Positions 1 through 44,060 of a stretch of DNA of 44,060 bases are shown in pieces. This stretch comes from a virus. The notes below the pieces were generated by a model, which worked only from the letters and a program-made list of their open reading frames with translations, was not told where the DNA came from and ran no database searches. Location of the stretch: the IMG/VR virus record IMGVR_UViG_3300005538_000006, positions 1-44,060 of that record; one strand, written 5' to 3'. The translations under genes and the position numbers were made by a program. Positions within the stretch are counted from its first letter, which is position 1; each line of letters starts with the position of its first letter.

Positions 1-80
1 GCACGTCGTAGATCGCCCCGCTCTCGTCGTAGCCCTTGAACGTCGCTGTAGGCGCTGCTGCGGCGTCCGGCAGCGAGGCG
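1..80. repeat. Terminal direct repeat, left copy
   Basis: These 80 bases are identical to 43981-44060. The reading frame of the giant minus-strand gene runs in phase through the junction, which supports a circular map of 43,980 bp. An 80-base overlap is a usual size for an assembly overlap; a genuine short terminal redundancy is the alternative. Confidence 0.95.
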
Positions 81-2155
81 GCCTCCCCCTCGATCGGCGC
101 GGCGATCGGCTCAGAGGCGGCCACGTCGCCAGCGGCCGCGGGCACCGGCGCGACCTCCGACGTTCCACGTGCCACATCCGGCTCGGCTGCAGCCTGCACG
201 CGGATCCCGCGCTCCGCGTAGACCATCGCCGGGTCGACGCCGGCGTCCGCCGCCATCTGCCCGAAGCCGGCGCGCACGAGCGCCGCGTGATCCTCGGCGA
301 CGTCCGGCGCGAGGCCGGCGGCGGTCTGTGTGTCAACGAGCACCTGGTGCGCCTGCTCGAGCGCGGAGGGCGGAGGGTTCTGGGCTGGAGGCTCGGCGGC
401 CTTCTGCTTCTCCTCCTCGAGCCACGCCGCCGACTCGCGCGCATTCATGGCGGTCGGATCGTTCAGCCGGAGTTCCTGCTGGAAGAACGCATCGTCGGCC
501 GCCGGCAGCCGCGTCAGGTAGTCGGCCGGCGTGATCGGGAGGTCCGTGCTCGTCTGCTGCGCCCGATCGTAGGCGCCGGGATCGCCAGTCAATCGGGCGG
601 CCGCGGCCTTCGGGTCCTCGCCCTTCGATCGCGCGTAGTCCTCCAGGCTGGCGAGCGGGAGGTAGTGCGTCGTGTCGGGCGCGGCTTGCTCGAGGAACGC
701 GCGGAACGCGGTCGGGGACCGGGCGGCGAGCTTCGACTGCTCGGCGCCTTCCCGCAGCGCCTGGAGGACGACGGGGCCGTGCTGGGCCTGCTGCGCCCGC
801 GTCGCGTCGTACTGCTTCGCGGCGCCGAGCGCGCCGACGAGCGCGAAGCTCTGCACGCCCTCGAGCGCCGCCTGTCCCACCTCGGCCGTCGCCGCGCCGA
901 GGGTGGTCGGGACGGTGGGCGCGCTTGAGGCGGACTTCGCCAGCTCGCCGCCCGCGATGCTGACCGTCTTCATCGCGGCATTGAGGCCGGCGCCTTCCGC
1001 GATGGCGCCGGTGAAGCTCAGGCCCGCGTCGGCCAGGGCGCTCACGAAGCTGGGATTGCGCAACGCCGCCGTGATGGCGACGCGCCCCGCCGCGCCGGTC
1101 AACTTCTCCGCGCCGGGGATCGCCATCCGCACGAGCTTTCCGCCGACGACCATGAAGCCCGTGTTGACGACGCCGGTGAGAATGGCCGCCATGCGCGCGG
1201 CGTTCGGGTCGATGGGTCGGCCGGTCGCGTCCGTGATCGCGGCGTACTGGTCGTAGCTCGATCCGATCTCCGTCAGGACCGCCGTCTTGCCGAGGCCGTA
1301 CAGTTCGCCGCCTTCGTACCCCGCTTGCGCGCCTTCGATGGCGCCGGCCGCGGTGCCCGGTCCCGGGACGACGGACCCGATCGCCGCGCCGACCGCCGTC
1401 CCGAGCGCCGCGCCGACCACGGCGTACGGCGACGAGCTGGCCGCGAAGGTGAGGAGTCCCATCCCTTTCGTGAGCGCGCCCTTGAACCACGAGTTGCCGG
1501 CGCCGAGATCGGCGTCGCGATCGGCGGCGATCTTCGTGCTCGCCATCTCATCGCGATCGGCCTGGGTCAGCGGGACGCCGAGCACGTCGTAGGCGCGCAG
1601 CGTGGCGTAGCGTTGCTGGTTGAGGGTGCCGCTGATGGCGCGCGCCGGCATGTCGCGCAACCACTTGGCCTGTTGCAGCGTCCAGTCGAGCGCGCCGAGC
1701 TGCGGGAGATCGTCGTGGGCGACGGCGGCGTTGGCCGGATCGGCGATGAAGCTCGCGACCGCCGGCGTGTCGCGATGAATCTGATCGAACGGCACGGCCT
1801 GGATCGCCGCGCGTTTCTTGATCGCGTCGTAGTTGCGGCCGACGATGTCCGCCGAGATCCCGGTCTGCGTCGAGAGCCGCTGAATGTCGGCGGCGCGATC
1901 GGGCGGCGTGCCGGCGTCGGTCGCCTGCACGACCGAGGTCCGCAGCGCCTGAGTGCGCCCGGCGTCCTGCTCCTGAAACATCTGGTCATAGGCGTTCGGC
2001 GTGGCGGGCGAATTTATACCGGTCGGTGAATTTATACCGGTCGGTATAATTTGTCCCGGTTCCGTCGCGCCTTTGTCAGGTGACAATGCCGGCTGTGGCG
2101 GCGCGGCTTGCTCCGGGTCGAGCTGCTCGACGCCAGGGTCCTCGACGGCGTCCAT
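1..2155 (-). CDS. Giant ejection (internal virion) protein, N-terminal 718 codons
   Basis: This is the 5' part of a gene that continues across the map junction into 38282-43980, giving about 2,617 aa in all. The ATG at 2155 lies just after the TAG stop (2158-2156) of the preceding ejection protein. The N-terminus is acidic and proline-rich and holds a duplicated hexapeptide (PTGINS) coded by an 18-bp tandem repeat. Residues about 240-300 form a glycine/alanine-rich segment (AAIGSVVPGPGTAAGA) of the glycine-zipper type that could insert in a membrane. Residues about 540-718 are low-complexity Ala/Pro/Glu. Large ejection proteins (T7 gp16, epsilon15 gp17) are known to enter the host envelope with the DNA. 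The position after two other ejection-type genes and before the lysis genes fits that role. The function of the N-terminal part itself is inferred. Confidence 0.85.
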   Translation of the reverse strand, partial: MDAVEDPGVEQLDPEQAAPPQPALSPDKGATEPGQIIPTGINSPTGINSPATPNAYDQMFQEQDAGRTQALRTSVVQATDAGTPPDRAADIQRLSTQTGISADIVGRNYDAIKKRAAIQAVPFDQIHRDTPAVASFIADPANAAVAHDDLPQLGALDWTLQQAKWLRDMPARAISGTLNQQRYATLRAYDVLGVPLTQADRDEMASTKIAADRDADLGAGNSWFKGALTKGMGLLTFAASSSPYAVVGAALGTAVGAAIGSVVPGPGTAAGAIEGAQAGYEGGELYGLGKTAVLTEIGSSYDQYAAITDATGRPIDPNAARMAAILTGVVNTGFMVVGGKLVRMAIPGAEKLTGAAGRVAITAALRNPSFVSALADAGLSFTGAIAEGAGLNAAMKTVSIAGGELAKSASSAPTVPTTLGAATAEVGQAALEGVQSFALVGALGAAKQYDATRAQQAQHGPVVLQALREGAEQSKLAARSPTAFRAFLEQAAPDTTHYLPLASLEDYARSKGEDPKAAAARLTGDPGAYDRAQQTSTDLPITPADYLTRLPAADDAFFQQELRLNDPTAMNARESAAWLEEEKQKAAEPPAQNPPPSALEQAHQVLVDTQTAAGLAPDVAEDHAALVRAGFGQMAADAGVDPAMVYAERGIRVQAAAEPDVARGTSEVAPVPAAAGDVAASEPIAAPIEGEAASLPDAAAAPTATFKGYDESGAIYDV
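2010..2045. repeat. 18-bp tandem duplication inside the giant gene
   Basis: Two perfect copies of GAATTTATACCGGTCGGT lie head to tail (2010-2027 and 2028-2045), followed by a degenerate third. The unit is AT-rich compared with its surroundings. Its length is a multiple of three, so each copy adds the hexapeptide PTGINS without breaking the frame. Confidence 0.9.
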
Positions 2156-3892
2156 CTACTTCGGCTTTCGCAGCTGCATCTGCTGGTAGGCATCGAGGAT
2201 CGTGGCGTCGCTCACGGCGCGGCCGCTGCGCTGCAGGGCGCTCGTGATCTGCAGCTTGTCGGCCGCCGGCACGTCGGCGATCGTCAGGTTGATCGTGCTC
2301 GCGGTCTTGTCGCTGAAGCCGGAGAGCGGCACGCCGGAGAACGGCACGACGGCCCACCAGGAGCCGGGTGTCGTGTGCGAGGCCGACAGGATCTTGTCGA
2401 GCTGCGCCTGAATGTCGACGTCCGTCGCTTTCTTCCCGGTGAGCGTTTCGAGGTCCGTCACGTTCTGGCGGAGCATGGTGCGGAGCGTCGCGTTGGCTTT
2501 CCCCTGCGGCGTGTTCGGCTTCGCGGTCGGGTCGAGCCCGAAGCGCACGAGCGAGTCGTTGACCATCTGCGTCGAGACGGTGAACGGCGCGAGCACGCGA
2601 TTCGCCGCCGCGGTGTCGCCCTTGCGCACCGAGAGCTGCAGGTCCGCCAGGTGTTTGAAGTCCGCGTCGTCGAGCTTCCCGCGGTCGGCCAGGAGGTTGC
2701 GCGCCGCGAACGCGGTCGGATCCTTCCCGGCTTCGTCAATGCGTGCGTAGAACGTGGCCGGATCCGTTTCGACCTTGTCGCCCTTACTGAGCGTCTTCGC
2801 GTAGGACGACAGCGCCGGCATGTGCTGCGCGAGCGTCGCCTGCACGGAGGGTGGGATCGTCGTAAGGTCCCCGCCGCTTTTCGTCAGCGCGTCGTACGAT
2901 TGCGTGAGGAGCGTCTCGGTCTGCTGATGCTCGGCCTGGACCTTCAGCCCGTTCGCGTGCTCGATGCGCGACTCGACCACCTCGCGCACCTTGTCGGGGA
3001 ACTGCTTGGCCTGCTCGAGCTGCTCGGCGAGCGTCCCGCCCTTGCCGATGATCGTGTCGGCTTCCTGAATCCCCGTGCTCTTGGCCTGGCCGACCTGGAG
3101 CGCCTTCTCGATGGCGCCGAGCGCGTCGCCCTTGATGAGCGATTTCGTTTCGTCGAAGTACGCCTTCGCGCTGGCCGTCTGCCCGTTGTCGAGCAGCCGC
3201 CCGATCACGCCGGTCAACGTCGCCGTCTGGAAGTTCTCGACCTTCTGCTGTAGCACCTCAGGCGACCAGCCCTGACGCGGCGCCGCCGCCTTGAGCGCGT
3301 CGACGCCTTCGCCCAGCGCCTGGCCGACGCGGCCCGGATCCTGCGCGTTGGCCGCCGCCTCGTTCTGCTTGTTGTCGCTGAAGGCGGCGACCGTCTGCGC
3401 GTCGTACTCCTGGAGTTGGCCGGAGGCGTGCCGCTCGAGGTCGAGGTTCAGCCCTTGCCGTTCGTTGTCGCGGAGTTTCTGGAACGCGAGCTTCTGCTTG
3501 TCGTTGGTCAGGCCGTCCGCGATCGCGTCCGCCGCGTCGTCGAATTGTCCGAGGACGGGATCGACGTTGCCGACCGCGGCCTTCCCTTTCACGTTCAAGG
3601 CGCCGCTCGTCGGATCCCACAGCAGGCCCGTCTTCGCGTCGAGCAGTTGGTTGTGCGCGTCGAGCGTCGCGACCTGATCGGCCTGGGCCGACGCGGTCTG
3701 CATCGCATCGAGCGCGTGCCCCGCGATCGTTGCGCCTTCCTGGCCGAGGCTCGCGATCTCGGTGTCCTGCCGGGCGTTCGCGAGATCGAGGCCTGCGCCT
3801 TCGGAGTCCGGCGTCTCGGCCGCGGATTTGCGCACGCCGGGGATCAGCGTCGCGTCGACTTTGCGGGCGCCGTAGAGGGAGACGGTCGGCAT
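2156..3892 (-). CDS. Ejection / internal virion protein, 578 aa
   Basis: A 578-aa mostly alpha-helical protein rich in Ala, Gln, Asp and Lys, without signal peptide or clear membrane segment. The N-terminus (MPTVSLYGARKVDATLIPGV) resembles the start of many podoviral internal core proteins. It sits between the 183-aa gp14-like protein and the giant ejection protein, the usual place of the second of three ejection proteins (T7 gp15, epsilon15 gp16). A moderately hydrophobic stretch near residues 510-535 (SWWAVVPFSGVPLSG) is the only notable non-helical part. The ATG at 3892 is 4 bases after the upstream gene's coding region. I assign the role from position and composition; no catalytic motif is visible. 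Confidence 0.75.
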   Translation of the reverse strand: MPTVSLYGARKVDATLIPGVRKSAAETPDSEGAGLDLANARQDTEIASLGQEGATIAGHALDAMQTASAQADQVATLDAHNQLLDAKTGLLWDPTSGALNVKGKAAVGNVDPVLGQFDDAADAIADGLTNDKQKLAFQKLRDNERQGLNLDLERHASGQLQEYDAQTVAAFSDNKQNEAAANAQDPGRVGQALGEGVDALKAAAPRQGWSPEVLQQKVENFQTATLTGVIGRLLDNGQTASAKAYFDETKSLIKGDALGAIEKALQVGQAKSTGIQEADTIIGKGGTLAEQLEQAKQFPDKVREVVESRIEHANGLKVQAEHQQTETLLTQSYDALTKSGGDLTTIPPSVQATLAQHMPALSSYAKTLSKGDKVETDPATFYARIDEAGKDPTAFAARNLLADRGKLDDADFKHLADLQLSVRKGDTAAANRVLAPFTVSTQMVNDSLVRFGLDPTAKPNTPQGKANATLRTMLRQNVTDLETLTGKKATDVDIQAQLDKILSASHTTPGSWWAVVPFSGVPLSGFSDKTASTINLTIADVPAADKLQITSALQRSGRAVSDATILDAYQQMQLRKPK

Positions 3893-3895
3893 GAT

Positions 3896-4447
3896 CTACG
3901 TTCCGTATCCGTACTTCTTGCCGAGGATGGAGGCCGCGCCGCCGATGAGCGTCCCGGCTGCAGCGAGGTTCGCGGTCCCGGCCGCGGCCGATCCCGCCGC
4001 TGCGTCATACACACCCGTCTTGCGGGCGATGTCGGCGGAGGTCCGCAGGTCCTGCGCCTGCACCTGAAACCCCCAGGCCGTGCGCGCCGCGTTGTTCTTG
4101 ATCTGCAGCGCGTCGAGCTCGCCCGTGTACGCCGCGTCCGCCTGGACATCGACCGCGGAGCCGAACCCGACGTCGACGTTGTTGGCCGAGATGCCCGCGC
4201 GCTGCGCGCCGATGGCGCCGCGGATCTGGGTCCGGAACGTGTCCGCGTCCTGCTGGCCCTTCTCGACGGCGTCCTTCGCCTGGAGGTCCGCGACGCTCGC
4301 GTTGTAGTCGGCGAGATCCGCCTGGCTGTTCGCGGCGGCCTGCTGCGCGTCGCCGGCCGCCTGTTGCGCCTGGCCGGCCTTGTGTTGGGCGTACGCCGAG
4401 ACAGCCGTCGAGAGGAGCCCCACGCCGATGACGGCGCCTACCGGCAT
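3896..4447 (-). CDS. Internal virion protein, T7 gp14-like, 183 aa
   Basis: The protein begins with a short hydrophobic segment (MPVGAVIGVGLLSTAVSAYA), followed by an Ala/Gln-rich helical region and then a pattern common to gp14-type internal virion proteins: 'RGAIGAQRAGISANNVDVGF' and repeated Ala-rich helices, ending in a Gly/Ala tail. Such proteins are ejected first and form an outer-membrane channel in T7. I chose the ATG at 4447 (AGGTG upstream) rather than an ORF start at 4561, because the extra N-terminal residues are Arg-rich shadow of the upstream gene. It overlaps that gene by 10 bases, in keeping with coupled translation of the ejection genes. Confidence 0.8.
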   Translation of the reverse strand: MPVGAVIGVGLLSTAVSAYAQHKAGQAQQAAGDAQQAAANSQADLADYNASVADLQAKDAVEKGQQDADTFRTQIRGAIGAQRAGISANNVDVGFGSAVDVQADAAYTGELDALQIKNNAARTAWGFQVQAQDLRTSADIARKTGVYDAAAGSAAAGTANLAAAGTLIGGAASILGKKYGYGT

Positions 4448-5211
4448 CGCAGCACCTCGAATCCACCAGCGGAGGCCTCGACGAGCGCGTCCTGCACGTC
4501 GAGCACGATCGGTCGGGTCCGGACGAGGACGATCGGCGCGTACTGCGTGCAGCCCGCCCACACGTTATAAAAACGGACGGCCTTCTCGGGATTGCCAGCC
4601 TGCACCATCAGGACGACGGCGCCGACGATCGCGTCATGGACCGGGTCGTCCGCGTGGGTCGGAAGCGGCGAGCCCGCGGCGGCCTTCGCGTCGGCGAGCT
4701 GCGTATGAAACCACGCGCCGAGCGGCGCGGTCGTCGGCGACTTCAGGGCCCAGCGTTCGATCGGGAGCGCGAAGAACTCCGCCGTGACGGGCGTCCCGCC
4801 GGTCCACGGGATCGCGATCGTGAACCGCGATTCAAACCCGGCCTTGCGCGCGGCGAACGCCGCCGGCCGATGCGCGCACGGGACGGTCGTCCGCCCTTCG
4901 GTGCAGTCGGTCGCGCTGAACATATAGTCGGCGACCGCCTGCATCGCGTCGAACGCCTCGGCGCCGCGGCCCTCGGGGAGAAAGAGCGAATGCACGTCGT
5001 ACCGCCCCGAGCCCAGGGCGAGACACAGGATCCCGCCGTGATCGGTTTCGAAGCAGACGTTGAGCGGATCCTGGATGAGCGGCGTCAGATCGAGCGCGCC
5101 GTCGCCGCCGATCGTCGGGCGCACCTCGGGGTCGTTGACGACGACGGTCAACCGCGCGCCGTCGAGCGTGCGGCGCACCGGGCGCGTGGAGGCGGGCGGG
5201 ACGTGGATCAT
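4438..5211 (-). CDS. Virion-associated protein of unknown fold, 257 aa
   Basis: The start is the ATG at 5211, inside an ATGA overlap with the staple gene; a longer ORF upstream is only Arg-rich shadow. The protein is globular and mixed alpha/beta, with several aromatic and Cys residues (CTEGRTTVPC near the middle, WAGCTQYAPIV near the C-terminus). I do not recognise the family. Its place between the capsid staple and the first ejection protein suggests a structural or internal virion protein. No signal peptide or membrane segment is seen. Confidence 0.75.
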   Translation of the reverse strand: MIHVPPASTRPVRRTLDGARLTVVVNDPEVRPTIGGDGALDLTPLIQDPLNVCFETDHGGILCLALGSGRYDVHSLFLPEGRGAEAFDAMQAVADYMFSATDCTEGRTTVPCAHRPAAFAARKAGFESRFTIAIPWTGGTPVTAEFFALPIERWALKSPTTAPLGAWFHTQLADAKAAAGSPLPTHADDPVHDAIVGAVVLMVQAGNPEKAVRFYNVWAGCTQYAPIVLVRTRPIVLDVQDALVEASAGGFEVLRCR

Positions 5212-5552: not shown

Positions 5553-7850
5553 TCAGCCTCCGAGTTCCACGTTGGGCATCAAGCCGAGCACCGTCAACGG
5601 CAGCGGATCGGTCTGCCGGATGAAGACATGGCCGTAGTCGTTGTAGCTGGCCGGGATCGTGATCTCCTGCTGCCCGGTGTAGGACACGCCCGCCTGGCCG
5701 ACCTCGTAGGGCTTGAGCTTGTGCGGCACGAGGCGCGTCGAATCCGGTCCCGCCGAGAACGTCCGCACGGAGTGCTCGAGCAACAGCGACACGGACCCGA
5801 CGCGCTTCTTCTTGTCGCGCACGGCGGCCCCCGCGACGTCGAGGTCGAGCGTCTCAATCTCCGCAAAGCGAATCGGGAGCCCGGCATGCACGATCGTCGA
5901 GGCCGGCAGCACCGCGGCGATCGTCCCGCCGAGGACCGTGAAGCTCGGGGCCTGGAGACTGGCGGGATCGCCATTGAAGACGACGACCCCGTCGCAGACG
6001 ACCGCGACGACCTGACCCTCGAGATGATCGAGCCCGGCGATCGTCGTGACGGTGGGCGGCCCGGTGTAGGTGAGGCCGGCGTCGAGGAAGAAACTGTCGG
6101 CGTTGAAATCGACGATGAGGCGCGGGGCGAGCCGCTCAATATAACGCACGAACGCCCCGCCGATCGTGCGACGCACCAGAACATAGAGCGCGTCCTCCGT
6201 GAACTCCGGCACCACGCAGACGTCTTCGAACAAGCCGCCGGCGCCGGTGTCATGGCGCGACCAGCCCCACACGTCCTGCTCGGGGATGTAGGAGAGGCCG
6301 AGCAGCGTCCCGTCCGATCGGATCGTCCAGATGATCGAGTGCGGCGTTTGCTGGAAGTCGACGCGGTCGATCGTGAAGCCGTCGAAGAGATGCGCCGCAA
6401 AGAGCGTCAGGTCCTTGCCGCTCAGGCCGGCGGTGCCGCCCGCTTGCGCTTGATCGAACCCGAGGTCGCGCAGGATCGTTTGCCGCGCCTGGACGTACAG
6501 GATCTTGTCGCCGACGATCACGTGACGGATGGTGCTCACGCCGGCGTAACCCTGTTGCTGCGCGTCGATGCTGTTCGGGCTCAAGGGCACATTCACCGGC
6601 CCGTTGAGCGTCGGCGCGCCCGCGACGGTCCACTCGCCGCCGCCGGTCAGGACGACCAGGGCGCGCAGCCCGATCAGGTGCCGGACCGGGTTGTGCTGGT
6701 TGCCGGCCATCCGGAACGTAATCGCGTCGTCGTCCTGGAGCGGGCTCGAGATGTTGAAATTGCTCACGAGCCCGATGCGCGAGCCCCAGACGCCATCACT
6801 GACGCTCGGCGTGTTCGCGAAGAACCGGCGTTGCTGGTAGTAGCCGGCGGTTGCCGGGTAGTCGTTCGCGCCGAACGCGTCCTTGAACATCACGCGCGGG
6901 ATCGGCGGCGTGCGCGTGAAGTCGGGATCGTCGCCGACGTCGTTGAAGGTCACGCCGCCGGTCGTCGTGCCGAGGTACCCGAAGACGCCGTTGCCGAACG
7001 GGTCGACATACACGTCGTACGTCGTCGGGATCGCGCCGCCGGGCAGCAGGCCAATGTCGACGGGCGCCGTCCACGTCAGGACGTTGGGCGCAGTCGGTGT
7101 CGGGGCCAGGATGTTCGTGACCTGCGCGATGGCGGAGGGCCCGGACTCTTCGCCGGTCGCATCATCGCGGGACGTGACGATGTAGGTGTAGCTAAGCGTG
7201 CCCGCCGCGCCCGGCGTGATCAGGATGCCGGTCGGCGGTCCAATCATCGGGACGGTCGGCACCTGGCGAATCACCCACGAGACCAACGTGCCATCGACCA
7301 GGTTGATCAGCTCGTAGGGCGCGACGAGCTGTGACGTCATGGTGATCGTCGTCCCGCTCTGGACCCAGGCGAACCCGGCATTCCCGAACGGCGTCGGGAG
7401 CTCGAGGATGTCGTCGGGCATCGCGTACCAGTACGTCGCGTTGGGCGGCGCCGTCGCCGTGTTGCGCTTGATGGCGTAGTAGTTCACGCCGCCGCTCGAG
7501 ACGATGTCGCCCGGGTTGTTGAAGATCGCCCCGTCGTACGCGACGACGCCGGTCAGCCGCACGAGCGCGCCGTTGTGGTAGAAGCGCAGGTAGTGCGGGC
7601 CCGCCTCGATCAGGCACGAGGCGCCGTCGACCGCCGAGACGTAGCGCAGGAGGAACGTGTCGGTCGCGCTGGTCTTCGTCGTCGCGACGTAGCGGAAGCC
7701 GGGCCGGTTCGCCACGCCGCCGTGCCGGAGGATGAGGAAGTTGCGACAGGTCCGCAGGCCGGTCTGATACTTCGCCTCGTCGGCGCGCGCGGCCAGGGCG
7801 GGCGCCAGCTCGCCGCCCGAAAACGCCCGCTGAATGGTCGTCTGGCCCAT
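5553..7850 (-). CDS. Tail tubular protein B / nozzle (gp12-like), 765 aa
   Basis: The N-terminus (TIQRAFSGGELAPALAARAD, then LRTCRNFLILRHGGVANRPG) is the hallmark of the podoviral nozzle family, which caps the short tail below the adaptor ring (T7 gp12). The rest is beta-rich, with a fibronectin-like stretch around residues 200-290 (Thr/Pro-rich, SYTYIVTSRDDATGEESGP), typical of long versions of this family. The start ATG at 7850 directly follows the stop of the 66-aa gene. It belongs to the tail block together with the adaptor fusion upstream. Confidence 0.88.
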   Translation of the reverse strand: MGQTTIQRAFSGGELAPALAARADEAKYQTGLRTCRNFLILRHGGVANRPGFRYVATTKTSATDTFLLRYVSAVDGASCLIEAGPHYLRFYHNGALVRLTGVVAYDGAIFNNPGDIVSSGGVNYYAIKRNTATAPPNATYWYAMPDDILELPTPFGNAGFAWVQSGTTITMTSQLVAPYELINLVDGTLVSWVIRQVPTVPMIGPPTGILITPGAAGTLSYTYIVTSRDDATGEESGPSAIAQVTNILAPTPTAPNVLTWTAPVDIGLLPGGAIPTTYDVYVDPFGNGVFGYLGTTTGGVTFNDVGDDPDFTRTPPIPRVMFKDAFGANDYPATAGYYQQRRFFANTPSVSDGVWGSRIGLVSNFNISSPLQDDDAITFRMAGNQHNPVRHLIGLRALVVLTGGGEWTVAGAPTLNGPVNVPLSPNSIDAQQQGYAGVSTIRHVIVGDKILYVQARQTILRDLGFDQAQAGGTAGLSGKDLTLFAAHLFDGFTIDRVDFQQTPHSIIWTIRSDGTLLGLSYIPEQDVWGWSRHDTGAGGLFEDVCVVPEFTEDALYVLVRRTIGGAFVRYIERLAPRLIVDFNADSFFLDAGLTYTGPPTVTTIAGLDHLEGQVVAVVCDGVVVFNGDPASLQAPSFTVLGGTIAAVLPASTIVHAGLPIRFAEIETLDLDVAGAAVRDKKKRVGSVSLLLEHSVRTFSAGPDSTRLVPHKLKPYEVGQAGVSYTGQQEITIPASYNDYGHVFIRQTDPLPLTVLGLMPNVELGG

Positions 7851-8051
7851 TTAGTTCGCGCCCCGCGTCTCGTCGGTCAGGATCGCGAGCTCGCGCAGCG
7901 TCAGGTCGTCGAGTGGCGAGCCGGCCTCGAGCGAGAAGCCCAGCGCTTCGCAGCGGTCGAGAATGTCGGCGATGCGTTCGCTGCTGAACAGCTCGACGTC
8001 GCGCAGCACGAGCTCCGGAATGATCTTGAGCGTCGGCAGTTCGCCGTTCAT
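7851..8051 (-). CDS. Small protein between adaptor and nozzle, 66 aa
   Basis: ATG at 8051 overlaps the stop of the adaptor fusion gene as ATGA, and the TAA stop touches the nozzle start, so the three genes are probably coupled. The protein is acidic and helical (SERIADILDRCEALGFSLE). Codon use is normal for the genome, and the larger frame upstream of this ATG is shadow. The function is unknown; a minor tail or chaperone role is possible from position only. Confidence 0.75.
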   Translation of the reverse strand: MNGELPTLKIIPELVLRDVELFSSERIADILDRCEALGFSLEAGSPLDDLTLRELAILTDETRGAN

Positions 8052-11000: not shown

Positions 11001-11515
11001 ATCGGGCTGTGCGTCGTCGAGATCGCCGTCGTGTTATCGAACTTCAGGCCGTAGCCGCCGAGATGCCGCGACGCATCGCGCGAGCAGTTCCCGCCGGCCG
11101 CCGGCAGCTCGAAGCCGTCGAGCCAATGCCGCTGCGCCATCGGCGTGACCGGGACGACGCCGGTCCCTGCCTTGTTCGGCGCGAGCGCGAACGAGCCGCG
11201 CCAGATGAAATGTGTCGTGGTGCCGGCGAGCCAGCCGAACCAGCCGCCGGGATCGCGGTCGAAGCTCGCCAGGTCGTACGGGTAATTGACCGCGGCCGAG
11301 GTGATGTATTGCGAGCGCGTGCACGGGTAGCTCGCGGGAAAGCTGTCCGGCTGAATCGGCGCGCCATACAAGATCGACGCCTGTTGCGGCGCCATGTTGA
11401 TCTTGGCGATCACGTTCGGGCCCGCCGAGTTGATCAACGCCTTCACGCGCACCGGGTCCGTCAGGTACACGGTGTAGTCGAGGTACTGCGTCTGGACGGA
11501 TCCGAACAGGCTCAT
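8048..11515 (-). CDS. Lectin-like virion protein fused to gp11-like head-tail adaptor, 1155 aa
   Basis: Residues 1 to about 900 form a long beta-rich appendage-type protein. A region near residues 150-400 has the look of a LamG/concanavalin-like beta sandwich (QQWERFYFRVRVLPVGGKS, then LVNVWHKLDLVYQFFPGEP). Residues about 905-930 are a Gly/Ser/Asp linker with runs of GGGGSGGG. The last roughly 225 residues match tail tubular protein A (T7 gp11-like adaptor): SQQIINTALSHLGVSI, CARLHYADDVDATLRAFPWP, WTYAYRTPADFLFARRL. Adaptors bind the portal and are normally separate proteins of about 200 aa. No in-frame ATG or GTG is present at the boundary, so a single fused chain is the simplest reading. 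The downstream gene starts by ATGA overlap. Confidence 0.85.
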   Translation of the reverse strand: MSLFGSVQTQYLDYTVYLTDPVRVKALINSAGPNVIAKINMAPQQASILYGAPIQPDSFPASYPCTRSQYITSAAVNYPYDLASFDRDPGGWFGWLAGTTTHFIWRGSFALAPNKAGTGVVPVTPMAQRHWLDGFELPAAGGNCSRDASRHLGGYGLKFDNTTAISTTHSPIENGDYSGGDHNALHQQWERFYFRVRVLPVGGKSRLWRVRGLSSNNAGAALDLLPDGTILNAFIDAGNVETQLGVAGQGTKILVNVWHKLDLVYQFFPGEPDMPTQYNDSAYLQVFLDGSHLLTVVDQGNGHLSNQRIGTSELGGGPANGLCWDVDDWMGAGYPTGGQTAHMFDPIAYPPGGLDWLNGSRIALVGATGFGSDNAGTWAGDWRLALQRPIGNATPQLLTVAANNVRLTLSTDAAREVDAVPNSLGMAAVSVAAYQMRTAGVDGTLGFRLGALTSVVAIVQGLALQWNRVLYSFVSLQPVTPATFPTQPLELIHNSGTSESLQTLAAEVELIGIFGPEDVPPAGNATNAPTIAPDIGSHNAPYPHSPWAKKGLPPLSPVVVVGGTYIGNGTFQDLPFKVPVHFFWVRPLTGGSGGVQWWSSLTVGHAGGGEGPDPDGVLQALIDPSFNGGLSLDAQQQQTLLRIAGANANSNANGVTYQYLAISDPGERFLAAGALKVTNQTIDIVSALDDSTFTPEAAFVFQERNGTSQTVHLFYKGPGHPATAITQLQGSSIGTGLKFSNGTLTSSVGLMNASDDEIGYLAFRRNDGSQDPGIPRVLALASYVGDGAAARTISLAPVSGRYPLWAIVVPHTDVAVYRDASHTGTTSTTFPSTPNAATGITAGGLDSISVGSALNQNAVAYDVFVIPGDTVAGNNGFSINGEFIPVEPTAGTGTQFDPTPATPEENNAPADGGDGSGDTGGGGSGGGTDFTGTCQGASQQIINTALSHLGVSIQVDDVVNELTEAATCARLHYADDVDATLRAFPWPFATRYADLVLVAGTPAVPVNGDWTYAYRTPADFLFARRLVSPAGTRRSYDPRPPTFRLSSDDVGPLLYTDTVNADGLTATLEYTRRPVCAASTGDSLFRAALAWKLAHSFAPVLSKDEKKVQYCWSMFLQVLSVAATKASAEVQQEKTGGPDWLDGRDGSPDWIRGRE

Positions 11516-35073: not shown

Positions 35074-36219
35074 ATGGGACGGAACCGCGCGTGGGTCGGG
35101 ATCGAACGGCGCCGCCGGGCGAAGGGCGACAAGTGGCGGGCGTGGGTGCGCGTGCACCCCGGCAAGGGCGGCCTCAAGAGCAAGACGTACGACCTCGACA
35201 CCGCCCCGAGCGTCATGCAGGCGTGGCGCACGCAACAGGTCGAACTCTTCGGCGGCCCGACCGAGGGCGGGCTCGCCGCCGAAATCGCGACGTTTCTCGC
35301 CAAGCCCGAGATCGCCGCGCAGCCCTACGTCCACCAGACGGCGCGGATGCTCGGGGTGTGGCTCGACGAGCTCGGCGACGTGCCGCGGGACTCGCTCACC
35401 AAGGATCAGTTTGAAACCGTCATTCAGAAGTGGCTGAAGGTCTACGCCGAGCCGACCGTCTACCATCGCCGGTCGGTGCTCGTATCGCTCTACACCGTGC
35501 TCGACGGCGAGGAGGCCGCCAATCCGGCGAAGGCGACGACCTGCCCGAAGTCGTGGATCCCGGCCGATCATTCGGTCCCGTTCGCGACCCTCACGGCGAT
35601 TGTCGACGCGATGCCGGACTGGCGCTACGTGAAGAAGGGGATTCGCGTGCCCTCGGTCGCCAAGCTCGTGGCGCGCGTGATGATTGCGACTGGCCTGCGC
35701 CCCGTCGACCTCTCGCGCGTGCGCCGGCATCATCTGGCCTGGCTCGCCGAGTCGTTCCTCTGGCCGGCGAGCAAGAAGGGCGAAGGCGTGGACGCGCATG
35801 ACTGCGAGATGTCGGAGGAGGCCTTGATCGCCTTCCGCGCGTTCGACGCGGCCGACGCGTACAACCGCTTCAGCCCCGCCGCCGTGAGCCATTCGTTCAA
35901 GCGCGCCGCGCGCCAGGTCTGCGGCCAAGACACGCCGATTCACCTCTACACGCTACGCCACGGCGTCGGCGCGGATCTCTATCGGGTGACGCGCGATCTC
36001 GCCACGGTCGGCCGCCTGTTGGGCCACGCCGAGGGCTCGCGCGCGACGCCGCAGTACGCGCGGGGCGCGAACGCGGAGGTCAACCGGGCCGCCGTGCAGG
36101 CGCTCAGCGCGGCGCGGGCGCAGATGCTGGCGCCGGCCGCCTCACCGAATAAGTCACCCGAAAAGTCACCCAGGCCGAAGAAGGCCAGTCGCATCAAGCA
36201 GTTACGTAAGCGTGCCTAG
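35074..36219 (+). CDS. int: Tyrosine recombinase integrase, 381 aa
   Basis: Integrates the phage DNA at attP/attB. The catalytic domain shows Arg209 (ATGLRPVDLS), candidate Lys234/235, Arg295 in 'YTLRHG', His318 in 'LLGHAEG' and the nucleophile Tyr328 in 'ATPQYAR'. The usual first His of the HxxR box is a Tyr here (YTLR). The N-terminus is basic, in line with arm-site binding. The stop codon TAG (36217-36219) is already part of the attachment core, and the last codons carry the left arm repeats, coding the Lys/Ser/Pro-rich tail (NKSPEKSPRPKK). Confidence 0.95.
   Translation: MGRNRAWVGIERRRRAKGDKWRAWVRVHPGKGGLKSKTYDLDTAPSVMQAWRTQQVELFGGPTEGGLAAEIATFLAKPEIAAQPYVHQTARMLGVWLDELGDVPRDSLTKDQFETVIQKWLKVYAEPTVYHRRSVLVSLYTVLDGEEAANPAKATTCPKSWIPADHSVPFATLTAIVDAMPDWRYVKKGIRVPSVAKLVARVMIATGLRPVDLSRVRRHHLAWLAESFLWPASKKGEGVDAHDCEMSEEALIAFRAFDAADAYNRFSPAAVSHSFKRAARQVCGQDTPIHLYTLRHGVGADLYRVTRDLATVGRLLGHAEGSRATPQYARGANAEVNRAAVQALSAARAQMLAPAASPNKSPEKSPRPKKASRIKQLRKRA
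36151..36171. other. Left pair of putative integrase arm sites
   Basis: AAGTCACCC occurs at 36151-36159 and 36163-36171, a direct repeat with 12-base period. It lies inside the 3' end of int, 46 bases before the attachment core. Confidence 0.55.
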
Positions 36220-37853: not shown

Positions 37854-38285
37854 TCAGCGGATCCCCGAGAAGAAACTGTGTGACTCAATCACGGCGACGG
37901 GCGACTGCCCGACCGCCCAGGCCGGCATCGGCGACCGGGTGACGTAGTAGAAGGTCGCGTTGTCGACGTTGTCGCGGCAGACGCCCGACTGAATCCCCTG
38001 CGCGACCCAGTAGAGCTCGGCGAGGACCGGGTCGATCGGCGGATGGCCGGCCATGATGTTCGCGGCGAGCCGCTGCAGCGCGGCGTAGTTGCTGGCGCCG
38101 CCGGCCGGCGACCAGCACGAGAACTGGAGATGCGCGAGACAAACGCTCTCGTACGACGCGCCCCAGCGGTTCGTCCGCAGGCGATTGCGGATCACGTTCC
38201 CGACCGCGATCTTCCCTTCGACCGGTTCGCCGCGCGCTTCGCCGTAGATCGTGAGGGCGAGGACGTCGAGCTGAGAAAGCGTCAC
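37854..38285 (-). CDS. SleB-type cell wall hydrolase (endolysin), 143 aa
   Basis: The N-terminus 'DVLALTIYGEARGEPVEGKI' followed by 'AVGNVIRNRLRTNRWG' is the Hydrolase_2 (SleB/CwlJ) family signature, with Glu in the GEARGE motif as likely catalytic residue. Later motifs: 'CLAHLQFSCWSP' and 'VDNATFYYVTRSPMPAW'. Such enzymes cut peptidoglycan glycan strands. No signal peptide, so release needs a holin. ATGA overlap with the giant ejection gene. Confidence 0.92.
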   Translation of the reverse strand: MTLSQLDVLALTIYGEARGEPVEGKIAVGNVIRNRLRTNRWGASYESVCLAHLQFSCWSPAGGASNYAALQRLAANIMAGHPPIDPVLAELYWVAQGIQSGVCRDNVDNATFYYVTRSPMPAWAVGQSPVAVIESHSFFSGIR

Positions 38286-41200
38286 CGGACGCCTGTCAGT
38301 TGGTCGCGGGCGACGTTGATGCCCTGGCCGACCGGGCGCAGCGGCAGGTTTGACGCCATCCCCAGCAGCGTAAAGAGGTCGATGATCGTCTTCGCGTTCT
38401 GCGCGTGCGTGCGATTGGCGTCGGTGAGGCTGTGATACAGCTCGCCCGGCAGATGCACGGCGTTCACGACGGCGTCGACCGCCGGGGCATTGAGCACGCT
38501 GCGCGCTTGCCCCTTCCCGAACGCGTACGCCGCCGTCTCGACCAGCGCGCCGCCGAAGGGAATCATCCGCGCGCCCATCTTCAGTTGGCTCTCGCCCCAG
38601 AAGCGCAGGAAGGCCGACGCCGCCTCGTCGTCGTCGCCCTGGCCGATCACTTTGCCCGGCGCCACGGACCCGGCATGCATCGCGTTCTTGATGCCCTCGC
38701 CGAGCATGGCGGGAATCATGAAGCCCATCGCGTAGATCCCGAACGCGCGCGCGAAGCCGCGGCGCAGACCCATGCGGGAGGCGAGCACGGCCTCCGTGCC
38801 GAGCATGTTCAGCTTCGTATTGAAGAAGCCGTAAAACTGATTGAGCAGCGCCAGCGTTTGCGGGCCGCCCTCGAGCGCCGACCGATCCTGCGGCCGATAG
38901 GTCCCCAGCGCCTGGCGCACGGCCGAGTCCGCGCGTGCGACGGCCTGGTCGTGCGTCATCCCGTCTTCCGCCGCGACCTTGTCGTACACCGCGCTCCAGG
39001 TCACGTTGTCCATCGCCGACTGAATGCCGCGCATCAGGACCGACGTGTGCGCCTGAACCCAGGCCGCCCCGCGCTGCAGCGGGTTCGGGTCGACCAGGAT
39101 GTGGTCGATGTCCTCGTGCGCTTTGTCCAGGCCGGCCGATTCGCGGGTCGCCATGTAGGGTGACGCCTCGTGAATCTCCTCCGCCATCGCCCGCGGTTCA
39201 CGCGACAAGCGCCACAGCGCCGCAATCATCTTGGTCCCGTCGACGTCGGGGTGAATCGCGACGGATGGGAAATGCGTGAACTGCTCGGCCAGGACCGTGC
39301 CGTTCAAGGCAATGATCTGCATCGCGCCGCGGGTCCGGACTTCGCGCGCGACCGTGTCGGCGAGGCGACCGGCTTTGCCGTCCATCCGGCGGAACATCTG
39401 CTGACTGGCCGCGCGCTCGAGGTACGGCCGCAGGAGATCGCTGACGACGGCCGGATCGACGGCGTCCATCGGCGTGCGAAACGCGGGATGCAGCACCAGG
39501 CGCGCGACCTCGTGGACCGGCTGCGAGAGGTGCGTGAACTTCAGCACGCTGTTGACGTGGGTGAGGACCTGCGAGGCGTCCATGATGAGCGGCTTCGCGT
39601 AGCCGTCGACGCGCGTTTGCGTGAACCCGCGCGCGACCGAGGGAAACATCGCACTGCCGCCCGTGCCGCTGTCGAGGCCCTTCAGCTCGCCGGCCGCCGG
39701 CGTGATGAACGGATCCACGATCGCCGGATAGTACCCGCCGTCGTAGGACCCGAACGGCGTCTCGATTGGGACCGCGGTCACTTCGTCGAAGTAGCGGCCG
39801 AAGCGCGCCTTGTGGGTGCGCTGCGCGTCGGGCTTCAGCGAATCGTTGAGATCCCACACGGCCTGGACGTAGTCGTAGTCCGCCTTCGTGAGGACGCCCT
39901 CGCGCTGCATCCGGCTGATGAAGGTGTCCCACGGGCGCGTGTCGACCCGGCCATCGGCGCCCACCGTCCCCCATTCGCGGCCCCGCAGGAGTTTGTCGCC
40001 GTTGCTCCCCGGCTCGAAGCCGTTGCCGGTGTGCAGCAGCGCGCCGAGCAGTTCCTGATGCTTGTCGGCAAAGGTGTAGTGGAGCTCGGGCGCCTCGATC
40101 TTCGTCGCGCGCGGCGAGTCGGCGAGCGGTTCCACGATCGCGGCGTACTGTTTCGCCAGGTCGACGCGCGCCGTGTCGTAGGCGATCGCCCCGACGTTGA
40201 TGGGATCGTAGATGCCGCGCCGGGCCGGCCCTTCGCGCCCGTTGTCGACGACGGTCACCCAGTCCTCAACGCGGCGCCCGCTCGCGCGGAAACCCAGCAG
40301 GCCCACCTTCACCCGCTCCCAGCCGGTCACCGCCTGGTGCCTCCCCGCCTGGGCGCGCGGCTCGCTGAACGTCCGGACCTGGTCGAGGACCTGCGCGCGG
40401 ACTTCGGTCAGCAGCCGCTTCTCGCCGCCGATCGTGATCTGCTCGGTCGTGCGCGCCAGATCCCAGAGCGCCGTCACGGCGTCGCTCATCGTCCGGAATT
40501 CTCCGACCGACATCTGCTTGTAGTCGCGGACGCTCGGCGTGAGGCTGTCGACGAGGTCCTGAATCTGCGCGCCGGCTTCCGGGTCGTACGTCGTGAGCTG
40601 CTTCAGGTACGTGTCGGCGCGACCGGCCGCGGTGCCGAGCCCGACCTGGCCGAGGATCGCGCGGCCGGCGTTCACGAGGTCGAGATCACGCGTCTCGGCA
40701 ATCTTCGCGTCGGGGCGGCCGAGTTTCTTGAACGCCGTCAGCGACTCGTCCACCTCCCCTTTCACGCGCTCGGCTTCGCGGTAGAGGGCGAGTGTCAGGA
40801 GCTCCTGCGTCTTCGCGGTGATCGCGCTCGTGAAGTCCTGCCGGGCGGCGTGGTCGATCGCCTGCTGCGCGGCGCGCCTCGAGGCCGACCAGAATTCGGC
40901 TGGCTTCAGATCGCGGATCGTCGTCGCGTTGACGCGCGTGCGCGCGGCGGTCTGCATCGTCTCGGCGGAGGGAATGCCGGCGCGGATGGTCGCGGCGCCG
41001 CCGCGGGCCTGGCGCTTCAGGCTGGCGACCTCCGTGGTGAGCGCGTCAATCTCGCTTTGCTTCCGGCCCTCGGCGATGGCGATGCGCAGTTTCGTCTCGG
41101 CCTCGGTCCAGCGGCGTTCGTACTCGCGCTCCTTCTGCTCGGCCTTGAGCGCGTCCTCGCCGCCCTGCACGAACGGCCGCACCTCGCGTTCCTTCGCGCG

Positions 41201-44060
41201 AAGCGCCGCGATCTCGGCGCGGATTACTTTCTCCCGATCGTCGTTGGCGACGGCGACGTCGGCCTTCTCCGGCAGCGTGCCATCGAGCAGCAGCGAGCCG
41301 TGCTGCTGCAGCATCCGGCGCTGCGTCTCGGTGTCGACGGCCGTCTTGAGATCGGGCGCCGTCTCGATGGCCTTCAGGAGCGCGTCGCCGCTGCTGAACC
41401 CGAGCGCTTCCGCCGCCGCGTCTGGACTGAGGCCACCGTCGCGCGTCGTCAGGCCGTTCGGTAAGCCCTTCGCGCGCTCGTCGCCAACGTCCTTGCGCGA
41501 GAGCTTCAGCGGCCCTTCCACGCCTTCGAGAGGTTCGCCGCTCGGATGCGTGCCGTCGCGGATCGCTGACACCGCGCGATAGACCGGCTGCTGTTGCAGC
41601 TCCGTTTCGACCTGCGCCCGCGTCGTGTCCCGTTGTTGCTTCCACTGCTTGGTCTGCTCGCGGCGCACCTCGGCGAGAAGCTGCTGATCGAGCGTTTGCT
41701 GGGCGGTCGCGTGCGCGCGCTCGATGTCCTCCCGGTAGAGCGCGAAGCGCGCGGGCGTCATGCCCGCGGCCTCGGCGGTGAGGAACATCGCCGGCTGGCC
41801 GCGGCGCGCTTCCGCGTCCGCGATCGCCTGGTCGGAGGCGAGCATCCGATCGAAGACGCCGCGCACTTCGTCCGTCAGCGGGGCGCCGTGATCGCGCAGC
41901 GCCTTGTAGACGCCGAGGAACCACGCGCGGAAACGGGAGAACAGCGGCTGGAGCTCGAGGCTCGGCGCCTTCCCTTCGGCCAGATATCGCTCGAACCATT
42001 CGGCGACCTGTTCGTGTTGCGCGGTCCGCTCCGGCGTCCCCTTCTCGGCGAGCTGTTCGATCCCGAGTTCGCGCAGCAGCGTCTGATGGTTCTCGAGTAG
42101 CCGGCTCTGCCCAGGCGTCAACGTCGCCGGGTCGAGGGTCTGGACGTGCTCGACGAGATCGCGCTGGACCTCGAGGAACAGATGCGCGCCTTCGTGCAAG
42201 AACGAGGTGAGGTCCTTGTCCTTGAAGAGATCGATCGTGACCTGCTTGTCGGGGCCGATGGTGATCGAGGCGCGCGGCGGCGTGGCCTCGGCGCCTGGCT
42301 GGAATTGCTCGGTCGTCTGACGGGCCTCGTTGACAAACCCCAGCAGGTCCGATGTACTAAGAGACGTCCCGCCGCCGAGCGGCCCACCTGCAGCATCGGA
42401 TGTATAGTTCGAACTAAGGTTGGCGGGCGCCTCGACCTTCTGCGCGTGGAGCGCGTAGAAGGCTCTGTCGCTCCCCTCCTGGCCCTTCCGCAGCGTGATC
42501 TTCGCGACGTACCAATCGCTGTCCACCCTCAAGGGCGTGTACAGATAGTCGTACGGTACGCCGCCGGGACTGTTGCGATCCGGCGCGCTCCGTAGATAGA
42601 CCCCCTGATCGATGACTTGATCGAGATGCGCGAGCCCGATCACTTGCTCGGGCCGTACCGCTTCATGGACGGCTTTCTTCAGGGCTTCCCTTGCGACCCG
42701 CACCTCCCAGCCGGTGTGGGCATTCGTCGTGACGACCGGTGGGTCGAGCGCGGTCACAATGTCAGCGGCCCGCGCCTTCAGCTCGGTGCGAGTCATCCCC
42801 ACCAGGGACTTGTCAACTGGCAAGTCGACGACCGGCACTGTGTCCGGGATCGGGACCGTCTGCTGGAGCTCGTCCTCGATCTTGCGCGGTTGAAAGAGCG
42901 TCTCCTGTCGGTCCTTTGTGGGCTTCGCGACCTCTGAGGTCAGTGCGAAGGGCGCCTCGAGCTGCGGCGTGGCGACGTCCTGATCCCGCACGGCGCCGGC
43001 GTCGCCGGGGAGCCGCGGCTGCACTTCGCCCGTGTCGAGCAGGTCCCCAGGAATCTTTTGTATTCCCGGCTGATCGAAGCGATCGATGTCGAAGCTGTCA
43101 TCGACCGGGCCCGCCGGCTCCGCGGCGTCGCTGGCCTCGGCCGGCGTCGGCCGCCACGAGTCCGCCCACCAGTTCACGTTCGGATCGATCTGCGCCAGCG
43201 GCCCGAGCTCGTCGGTCCCCGGGAGCACGTCGGCGAGCGGCTGCGGATGGCGCTGGACTTCATCGATCGCGGTGAGCAGATCGCTCGCCGTTTCGATCCA
43301 CTGATACTTCTGGTCCTGCCGGAGCTGCGTCACCATGTCGTCGAGCGACACGCCGTCGCGCGTGAGGACGTTGATCCCGGCGATGCGCCCGAACTTGACG
43401 CCGTCCTTCAGCCAGTTGACTTCGCCGGGGAACGTCGAGTCGACGGTATTGATCCCGCCCAACTTCGCGACGTCGCGCAGCAGCTCTTTCGGATCGGGCG
43501 CGCCTTCGTCCCGGTCGCGGATCGCGTCGAGGCGGAAGTCGAATTCGGCCTTTAGTGCACCGAGGTCGACGGCGGGGTCGACGGTGCGAGCGGCATCGGC
43601 GAGGTCGGCGAAGACGGCGGCGTAGTGCCGAGCGGTGCGCTGGGCACGCTGGCCGGGTGACTCGCGTTCTCGAGGATAGCTTTGCGAAACGCCCAGCGTG
43701 TCGGCGCGCCGCGTTTCATCAGTTCGTCCACGCGCTTCAAGATCGGGTGCATCGGGACCTTCAGTCTGGGCGTCGGCTCCTGTGGTGTCAAGTCCGTGGT
43801 TGAACGCGTCGACGATCGCCTGGCCGAGGGGTGACTCCGGTCGCCGCGCTTCGATCGCCCGGCGCCGGAGCTCGGCTCCGCTGACTTTCTCGCCGGTATC
43901 GGGCGGCGTCTCCGGCGTCGCGATCCCGAGCGCCTCGAGGCCGGCCGCGTGCGTCGTCGAGCCGTCTGACGGACCGCCCTGCACGTCGTAGATCGCCCCG
44001 CTCTCGTCGTAGCCCTTGAACGTCGCTGTAGGCGCTGCTGCGGCGTCCGGCAGCGAGGCG
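38282..44060 (-). CDS. Giant ejection (polyvalent) protein, residues 718-2617
   Basis: Continues the gene beginning at 2155 across the junction; the in-frame GTG at 43984 is not a start but codon 718. Visible modules (full-protein numbering): about 1110-1240, a probable LPD3/BECR-type nuclease-like domain (TNAHTGWEVRVAREAL, LHLDQVI-like helix, 'DSDWYVAKITLRKGQ'); 1314-1318 HEGAH within 'TSFLHEGAHLFLEVQRDL', a zincin motif with a downstream 'EQVAEWFERYL' helix; 1640-1710 a coiled coil (LRAKEREVRP... EQKEREYERRW); the C-terminal 900 residues resemble the large polyvalent/ejection proteins, with a hydrophobic stretch near 2430-2470 (FGIYAMGFMIPAMLGEGI). It is longer than typical ejection proteins (about 1,000-1,500 aa). 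Its place before the endolysin gene fits a late virion protein. Confidence 0.85.
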   Translation of the reverse strand, partial: ASLPDAAAAPTATFKGYDESGAIYDVQGGPSDGSTTHAAGLEALGIATPETPPDTGEKVSGAELRRRAIEARRPESPLGQAIVDAFNHGLDTTGADAQTEGPDAPDLEARGRTDETRRADTLGVSQSYPRERESPGQRAQRTARHYAAVFADLADAARTVDPAVDLGALKAEFDFRLDAIRDRDEGAPDPKELLRDVAKLGGINTVDSTFPGEVNWLKDGVKFGRIAGINVLTRDGVSLDDMVTQLRQDQKYQWIETASDLLTAIDEVQRHPQPLADVLPGTDELGPLAQIDPNVNWWADSWRPTPAEASDAAEPAGPVDDSFDIDRFDQPGIQKIPGDLLDTGEVQPRLPGDAGAVRDQDVATPQLEAPFALTSEVAKPTKDRQETLFQPRKIEDELQQTVPIPDTVPVVDLPVDKSLVGMTRTELKARAADIVTALDPPVVTTNAHTGWEVRVAREALKKAVHEAVRPEQVIGLAHLDQVIDQGVYLRSAPDRNSPGGVPYDYLYTPLRVDSDWYVAKITLRKGQEGSDRAFYALHAQKVEAPANLSSNYTSDAAGGPLGGGTSLSTSDLLGFVNEARQTTEQFQPGAEATPPRASITIGPDKQVTIDLFKDKDLTSFLHEGAHLFLEVQRDLVEHVQTLDPATLTPGQSRLLENHQTLLRELGIEQLAEKGTPERTAQHEQVAEWFERYLAEGKAPSLELQPLFSRFRAWFLGVYKALRDHGAPLTDEVRGVFDRMLASDQAIADAEARRGQPAMFLTAEAAGMTPARFALYREDIERAHATAQQTLDQQLLAEVRREQTKQWKQQRDTTRAQVETELQQQPVYRAVSAIRDGTHPSGEPLEGVEGPLKLSRKDVGDERAKGLPNGLTTRDGGLSPDAAAEALGFSSGDALLKAIETAPDLKTAVDTETQRRMLQQHGSLLLDGTLPEKADVAVANDDREKVIRAEIAALRAKEREVRPFVQGGEDALKAEQKEREYERRWTEAETKLRIAIAEGRKQSEIDALTTEVASLKRQARGGAATIRAGIPSAETMQTAARTRVNATTIRDLKPAEFWSASRRAAQQAIDHAARQDFTSAITAKTQELLTLALYREAERVKGEVDESLTAFKKLGRPDAKIAETRDLDLVNAGRAILGQVGLGTAAGRADTYLKQLTTYDPEAGAQIQDLVDSLTPSVRDYKQMSVGEFRTMSDAVTALWDLARTTEQITIGGEKRLLTEVRAQVLDQVRTFSEPRAQAGRHQAVTGWERVKVGLLGFRASGRRVEDWVTVVDNGREGPARRGIYDPINVGAIAYDTARVDLAKQYAAIVEPLADSPRATKIEAPELHYTFADKHQELLGALLHTGNGFEPGSNGDKLLRGREWGTVGADGRVDTRPWDTFISRMQREGVLTKADYDYVQAVWDLNDSLKPDAQRTHKARFGRYFDEVTAVPIETPFGSYDGGYYPAIVDPFITPAAGELKGLDSGTGGSAMFPSVARGFTQTRVDGYAKPLIMDASQVLTHVNSVLKFTHLSQPVHEVARLVLHPAFRTPMDAVDPAVVSDLLRPYLERAASQQMFRRMDGKAGRLADTVAREVRTRGAMQIIALNGTVLAEQFTHFPSVAIHPDVDGTKMIAALWRLSREPRAMAEEIHEASPYMATRESAGLDKAHEDIDHILVDPNPLQRGAAWVQAHTSVLMRGIQSAMDNVTWSAVYDKVAAEDGMTHDQAVARADSAVRQALGTYRPQDRSALEGGPQTLALLNQFYGFFNTKLNMLGTEAVLASRMGLRRGFARAFGIYAMGFMIPAMLGEGIKNAMHAGSVAPGKVIGQGDDDEAASAFLRFWGESQLKMGARMIPFGGALVETAAYAFGKGQARSVLNAPAVDAVVNAVHLPGELYHSLTDANRTHAQNAKTIIDLFTLLGMASNLPLRPVGQGINVARDQLTGVR
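43981..44060. repeat. Terminal direct repeat, right copy
   Basis: Exact second copy of bases 1-80. It should be counted once when the molecule is treated as a circle. Confidence 0.95.

Follow-up and report, generated by a model that had tools for sequence, protein, structure and literature searches.

A predicted cargo slot ahead of a constant zincin module in a giant, probable ejection protein of a BPP-1-like phage

The IMG/VR virus record IMGVR_UViG_3300005538_000006 encodes a giant protein of 2,617 residues on the minus strand, in a reading frame that crosses the junction of the circularized sequence. Positions 1 to 44,060 of that record make up the window, the whole stretch of 44,060 nucleotides that was analysed. 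In the reading that we favor, with a probability of about 0.55, the giant protein is a polyvalent protein that serves a BPP-1-like podovirus as an internal (ejection) protein; it would consist of a constant chassis and exchangeable cargo, with a zincin serving as the processing protease that frees the cargo. This self-processing polyprotein reading is preferred because a constant zincin stands between a swappable cargo region and a constant core, and because the module borders share a motif.

The zincin module and the region before it

The layout of the protein is defined by the following features.

41795..42280, minus strand: zincin module, residues 1286-1447, with invariant HExxH and ExxA..FExYLxEG (two-domain model, predicted local distance difference test score [pLDDT] 81)
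42182..42196, minus strand: HEGAH, residues 1314-1318, the sole HExxH of the protein
42011..42013, minus strand: Glu1375, predicted third zinc ligand, invariant in 59 relatives (E282 of A4)
38285..41794, minus strand: constant C-terminal core, residues 1448-2617; residues 1451-2450 are covered in 35-84 of 86 relatives, mostly in at least 70
42887..43045, minus strand: conserved linker, residues 1031-1083, bounding the cargo slot on its left, present in 10 of 86 relatives (55-73% identity)
42890..42898, minus strand: LFQ, a hydrophobic-x-Gln motif, residues 1080-1082 (LFQ-P to 1083), at the linker end
42299..42310, minus strand: EQFQ, residues 1276-1279 (EQFQ-P to 1280), before the zincin; an atypical copy, as QFQ fails the strict pattern

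The module is of zincin type, with an invariant HExxH and an invariant third-ligand glutamate. Only about 0.045 HExxH motifs would be expected by chance in 2,617 residues of this composition, and HEGAH is the only one. The sequence-only reading had placed HEGAH in a helix and a glutamate-containing helix about 60 residues beyond it, and both placements agree with the AlphaFold2 model: HEGAH lies within helix 1310-1332, and Glu1375 lies 60 residues on within helix 1368-1387, the next long helix but one (block pLDDT at least 88 for both). The order of elements in the two-domain model (helix, short strands, HExxH helix, Glu helix) is compatible with zincin secondary structure. By tblastn with residues 1100-1500 as query, the module is present in 43 phage records, the best match being Bbp10 of Bordetella phage BPP-1 (44% identity, E 1e-35), and at least 537 stretches of the viral collection encode it. 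Both histidines and the glutamate of HExxH, Glu1375, and the A, E, Y, and G residues neighboring Glu1375 are invariant in alignments of 14 and then 59 sequences. The ligands H, E, H, and E are also kept in phages that are only 28-51% identical.

Conservation of the giant protein differs before and after the start of this module. Among 86 relatives, which were recovered with the zincin as bait, residues 1301-2450 are matched by BLAST in most, and residues 651-1250 mostly in 2-9; the last 120 or so residues of the core are covered in few. In relatives with complete ends, the distance from HExxH to the stop codon is 1271 +/- 76 residues, and the distance from the frame start to HExxH is 1165 +/- 432 residues. 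A Pfam scan of the 595-residue stretch ahead of HExxH, made for 62 relatives, identified domains of different kinds: ART-PolyVal (19), LPD3 (9), PBECR5 (5), and GNAT (3), and more rarely GGDEF (2), PBECR1 (2), PBECR3 (1), and zeta toxin (1). Judged from these sequences, the region before the zincin is a slot for exchangeable domains, and the protein from the zincin onward (about 1,270 residues) is constant.

The left edge of the slot is marked by a linker of about 52 residues that ends in LFQ (consensus DTGExQPRLPG..GAVR...ATP..EAPFALTSE.AK...RQETLFQP). What follows the linker differs between relatives: LPD3 in the window protein, ART in L017, L018, L026, and L053, and a partial ART followed by PBECR5 in L019. 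In L034 the linker is joined directly to the zincin, with 29 residues between linker and HExxH, so that the slot is empty.

Two side observations concern the slot. The L034 locus (L034:7812-8080, linker ending ...KLFQ) is a natural cargo-less relative. Short N-terminal ART pieces (HGSP...) stand at the slot start in L019 (L019:5358-5486), L022, L023, and L029; these are possibly degraded or divergent ART domains.

The border motif and the role of the zincin

A hydrophobic residue, any residue, and a glutamine (hydrophobic-x-Gln) recur at the borders of the modules. Where the zincin module begins, 18-45 residues before HExxH, the motif is present in 74 of 78 sequences, compared to 38% of control stretches taken from the same proteins. 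The narrower form [LF][FYN]Q is found there in 42 of 78 (2.6% of controls). Before cargo domains, the motif occurs in 24 of 31 cases (21% of controls); by cargo, it precedes ART in 10 of 16, LPD3 in 9 of 9, and PBECR5 in 5 of 6. The window protein has an LQQ at residues 1090-1092 in addition to LFQ and EQFQ. The zincin motif was also counted with a fixed rule in a held-out set, made from the loci of a second scan by reduction to 14 representatives of less than 60% identity (near-copies make up the majority of the 70 new loci); the cargo-border counts come from the original set. The motif precedes the zincin in 13 of the 14 representatives, one of which (L210) resembles a different HExxH protein, versus 39% of controls (P 4e-5). 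The narrow form is present in 3 of 14, versus 2.5% (P 0.005).

In the scheme that these observations suggest, the C-terminal 1,300 or so residues (the zincin and the long conserved region) would form a constant chassis that presumably serves packaging and ejection. Ahead of the zincin would lie the cargo region, in which phages swap effector domains, with LPD3 as the cargo of the window phage. The zincin would cut its own polypeptide, probably at the hydrophobic-x-Gln motifs ahead of the modules, and cleavage would free the cargo during assembly or after injection. Packaging, injection, catalysis, the site and timing of cleavage, and any action of LPD3 on the host are predictions of this scheme, which builds on the frame, the domains and their conservation, the cargo exchange, the linker, and the motif enrichment. 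Autoprocessing by zincins has been proposed for polyvalent proteins, and DdrB of phage P1 is cleaved before packaging (PMC5512222).

Several points weigh against self-processing, which is inferred from sequences and models. The virion RNA polymerase of coliphage N4 also has an HExxH domain followed by a long C-terminal domain, and it goes into the virion uncut (PMC5512222). The Gln motif was spotted before it was counted, the P-values are optimistic through the relatedness of the sequences, and EQFQ, which the window protein has ahead of its zincin, is an atypical form; the motif may just as well mark a recombination joint or serve as a linker. The zincin assignment rests on the conserved ligands, the AlphaFold2 model, and the homology to Bbp10, because the 50 PDB fold matches listed for the two-domain model include no solved zincin. 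The secondary structure and the placement of the ligands in helices fit the fold expected by the sequence-only reading, which has no counterpart among those matches. The zincin sequence profile gave a weak FtsH match at HExxH and nothing more, and PDB sequence searches with the zincin returned nothing useful.

Two other roles for the zincin are unlikely in our estimate. The first is a zinc-stabilized structural or assembly role in the ejection apparatus, with no cutting, the Gln motif being a linker or recombination joint. The N4 protein provides the precedent: its encapsidation requires the region that holds the HExxH domain, and it enters the virion uncut (PMC5512222; domain layout in PMC12633501). 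However, the general-base glutamate of HExxH does not vary in any aligned relative, and a zinc site with a structural role alone could do without it. The second role, which the sequence-only reading had proposed as a way to disable host defense, is that of an injected effector in its own right, with host proteins as the substrates of the zincin; we consider this improbable to a like degree. HExxH zincins do serve as effectors in other conflict systems, and this function is listed as an alternative in PMC5512222. Yet effector domains are swapped in this family, and the position of the zincin, joined to the constant core, is the same in all relatives recovered. The zincin therefore behaves as a part of the chassis, but its universal presence is partly by construction, as it was the bait for recovery. 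A constant zincin beside variable cargo fits self-processing better than an effector directed at host defense.

Extending the self-processing reading to BPP-1-type ejection proteins at large is a tentative step. On this generalization, the fixed zincin would recognize hydrophobic-x-Gln before each module, and any effector domain placed in the slot between linker and zincin would be injected and freed, so that the protein would act as an interchangeable delivery cassette.

The LPD3 cargo, the reading frame, and the genome setting

The cargo of the window phage stands between the linker and the zincin.

42470..42733, minus strand: LPD3 domain, residues 1135-1222 (PF18798, 43.4 bits, cut-off 27; AlphaFold2 pLDDT 90)

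LPD3 sits 92-179 residues ahead of HEGAH, where the sequence-only reading had described an LPD3/PBECR order of motifs. The LPD3 half of that description holds; the Pfam scan of the giant protein matched no PBECR family. None of the records of the first 14 relatives has LPD3 above the cut-off. Among viral relatives, 12 of 80 records have it, and where it could be placed, it lies directly before the zincin except in L077. Searches of phages, viral contigs, and genome contigs with the LPD3 segment as query gave no relatives, probably due to the divergence of the segment; its relatives were reached instead through Pfam and through relatives of the zincin. Modeled separately, the domain is predicted with confidence (pLDDT 90, predicted template modeling score 0.81), and its best PDB matches are weak, NTF2/cystatin-like, and poorly superposed.

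It is very doubtful that LPD3 is an injected BECR-type RNase with host RNA as its target: PBECR families do occur ahead of the zincin in relatives, LPD3 and PBECR domains share context in Helicobacter prophages (PMC5512222), and helices followed by a run of strands give the LPD3 model a loosely BECR-like order, but there is no BECR nuclease among its 50 listed PDB matches, the profile comparison with PBECR5 (hhalign) gave no match, LPD3 is absent from the list of probable enzymes in PMC5512222, and the YYNH motif common to the best-conserved related LPD3s is lost in the window copy. The nuclease-like BECR module of the sequence-only reading is accordingly unsupported; LPD3 lies outside the PBECR families.

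The frame and its surroundings comprise the following features.

1..80 (= 43981-44060), no strand: terminal repeat, 80 base pairs, exact identity; one copy dropped to close the circle
1..2155, minus strand: N-terminal 718 residues of the 2,617-residue ejection protein (PHROG_9880 match, residues 52-679)
38282..43980, minus strand: remainder of this protein, residues 719-2617, with the stop codon (residues 1697-2607 match PHROG_9880, E 6.5e-246)
1664..1915, minus strand: LPD22 domain, residues 81-164 (PF18834, 58 bits)
2156..3892, minus strand: neighbor, lysozyme-like virion protein, 578 residues (PHROG 10475 / 1044)
3896..4561, minus strand: neighbor, internal virion protein (PHROG 418)
5553..7850, minus strand: neighbor, tail protein of the same late module (PHROG 376, E 7e-150)

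Positions 1-80 of the window repeat exactly at 43981-44060. Removing one copy yields a circle of 43,980 base pairs with a single uninterrupted minus-strand frame of 2,617 codons, which runs from 2155 to 1 and then from 43980 to 38282. This confirms the single frame over the junction that had been predicted; the span first given for it, 38282-44060, holds residues 719 or so to 2617, and the N-terminal 718 residues lie at 2155-1. The junction is genuine because two relatives each align in one piece across residue 719 (L018 over residues 434-1090, L019 over residues 48-1083), and a long frame created artificially by the circular join is thus ruled out. The full-length protein matches the PHROG_9880 profile.

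The gene position is that of a BPP-1-type ejection protein, and on this basis the giant protein is probably packaged and ejected with the DNA. Genes matching PHROGs 10475, 418, 376, and 332 lie near it, and profiles in the neighborhood include lysozyme-like, internal virion, and tail proteins, a portal-type connector, a large terminase subunit, and an integrase; a major capsid protein of GP7 type was placed by Pfam. The giant gene comes immediately after the lysozyme-like gene, an arrangement shared with Pseudomonas phages AF and UFJF_PfDIW6, Acinetobacter phage Ab9, and others, and the order lysozyme, internal virion proteins, giant protein is that of AF and UFJF_PfDIW6. In phage vir555, the giant PHROG_9880 gene comes after an internal virion protein and one unnamed gene. 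The earlier label "epsilon15/BPP-1-type" is loose, as BPP-1-like relatives were recovered and epsilon15 itself is absent from the matches. Besides its setting among virion genes, the 2,617-residue chain combines several unrelated effector-type domains (LPD22, LPD3, and the zincin), as polyvalent proteins do. LPD22, counted among potentially enzymatic domains (PMC5512222), may be a second effector near the N terminus.

Three further genes of the window were noted. An integrase-like gene (35074-36219, plus strand, PHROG 1) suggests a temperate phage. A pectate-lyase-like protein (PF12708; 14826-16877, minus strand) between the capsid and portal genes is a probable tail spike or depolymerase, unusually placed. 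In a frame of 1,155 residues (8048-11515, minus strand), the last 200 or so residues match the 190-position profile of tail protein PHROG 394, and the remainder is a large fusion at the N terminus or else an upstream extension that is not real.

Relation to known systems

PHROG_9880 is the same whole-length family and carries no functional annotation. Bbp10 of BPP-1 is the same kind of gene in the late region, with a zincin module 44% identical; it differs in being shorter (2,052 residues), and the BPP-1 genome has no LPD3 match. Residues 700-1000 of Bbp10 were a seed of the CLCA_X zincin family in 2013 (PMC3650047), and combinations of zincin with LPD3, PBECR, or ART were central to the definition of polyvalent proteins in 2017 (Iyer et al., PMC5512222). 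The claim that zincin and effector domains on a BPP-1-type ejection protein are new is therefore contradicted by the literature: these kinds of domains and their joint occurrence in phage proteins that are injected are already known (PMC5512222), and so is this family's zincin (PMC3650047). Polyvalent proteins share with the window protein the large virion-linked chain, the MPTase-type zincin, and LPD22/LPD3, and the ART, PBECR, GNAT, GGDEF, and zeta toxin domains of its relatives. In contrast, the main text of PMC5512222 has no Bordetella, no epsilon15, and no word "linker", and the fixed slot and the Gln motif were not found there. In the open-licence papers searched, among them the main text of PMC5512222, the slot, linker, empty form, and Gln motif were not found for this family, and the slot layout with these elements looks undescribed. 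If the slot model is true, the family is a catalogue of domains injected at the first moment of infection, the injected cargo can be read as whatever stands between linker and zincin, and the phage-particle proteases, whose role was so far predicted, gain a specific candidate cleavage motif.

A parallel in architecture is the virion RNA polymerase gp50 of coliphage N4. Homology between it and the C-terminal half of the window protein is unsupported (hhalign P 0.021, aligned only around HExxH). The layout is the same in that gp50 is a giant ejected protein with a cargo enzyme, an HExxH domain (C1), and a long helical domain (C2) (PMC12633501); it differs in its cargo, which is an RNA polymerase.

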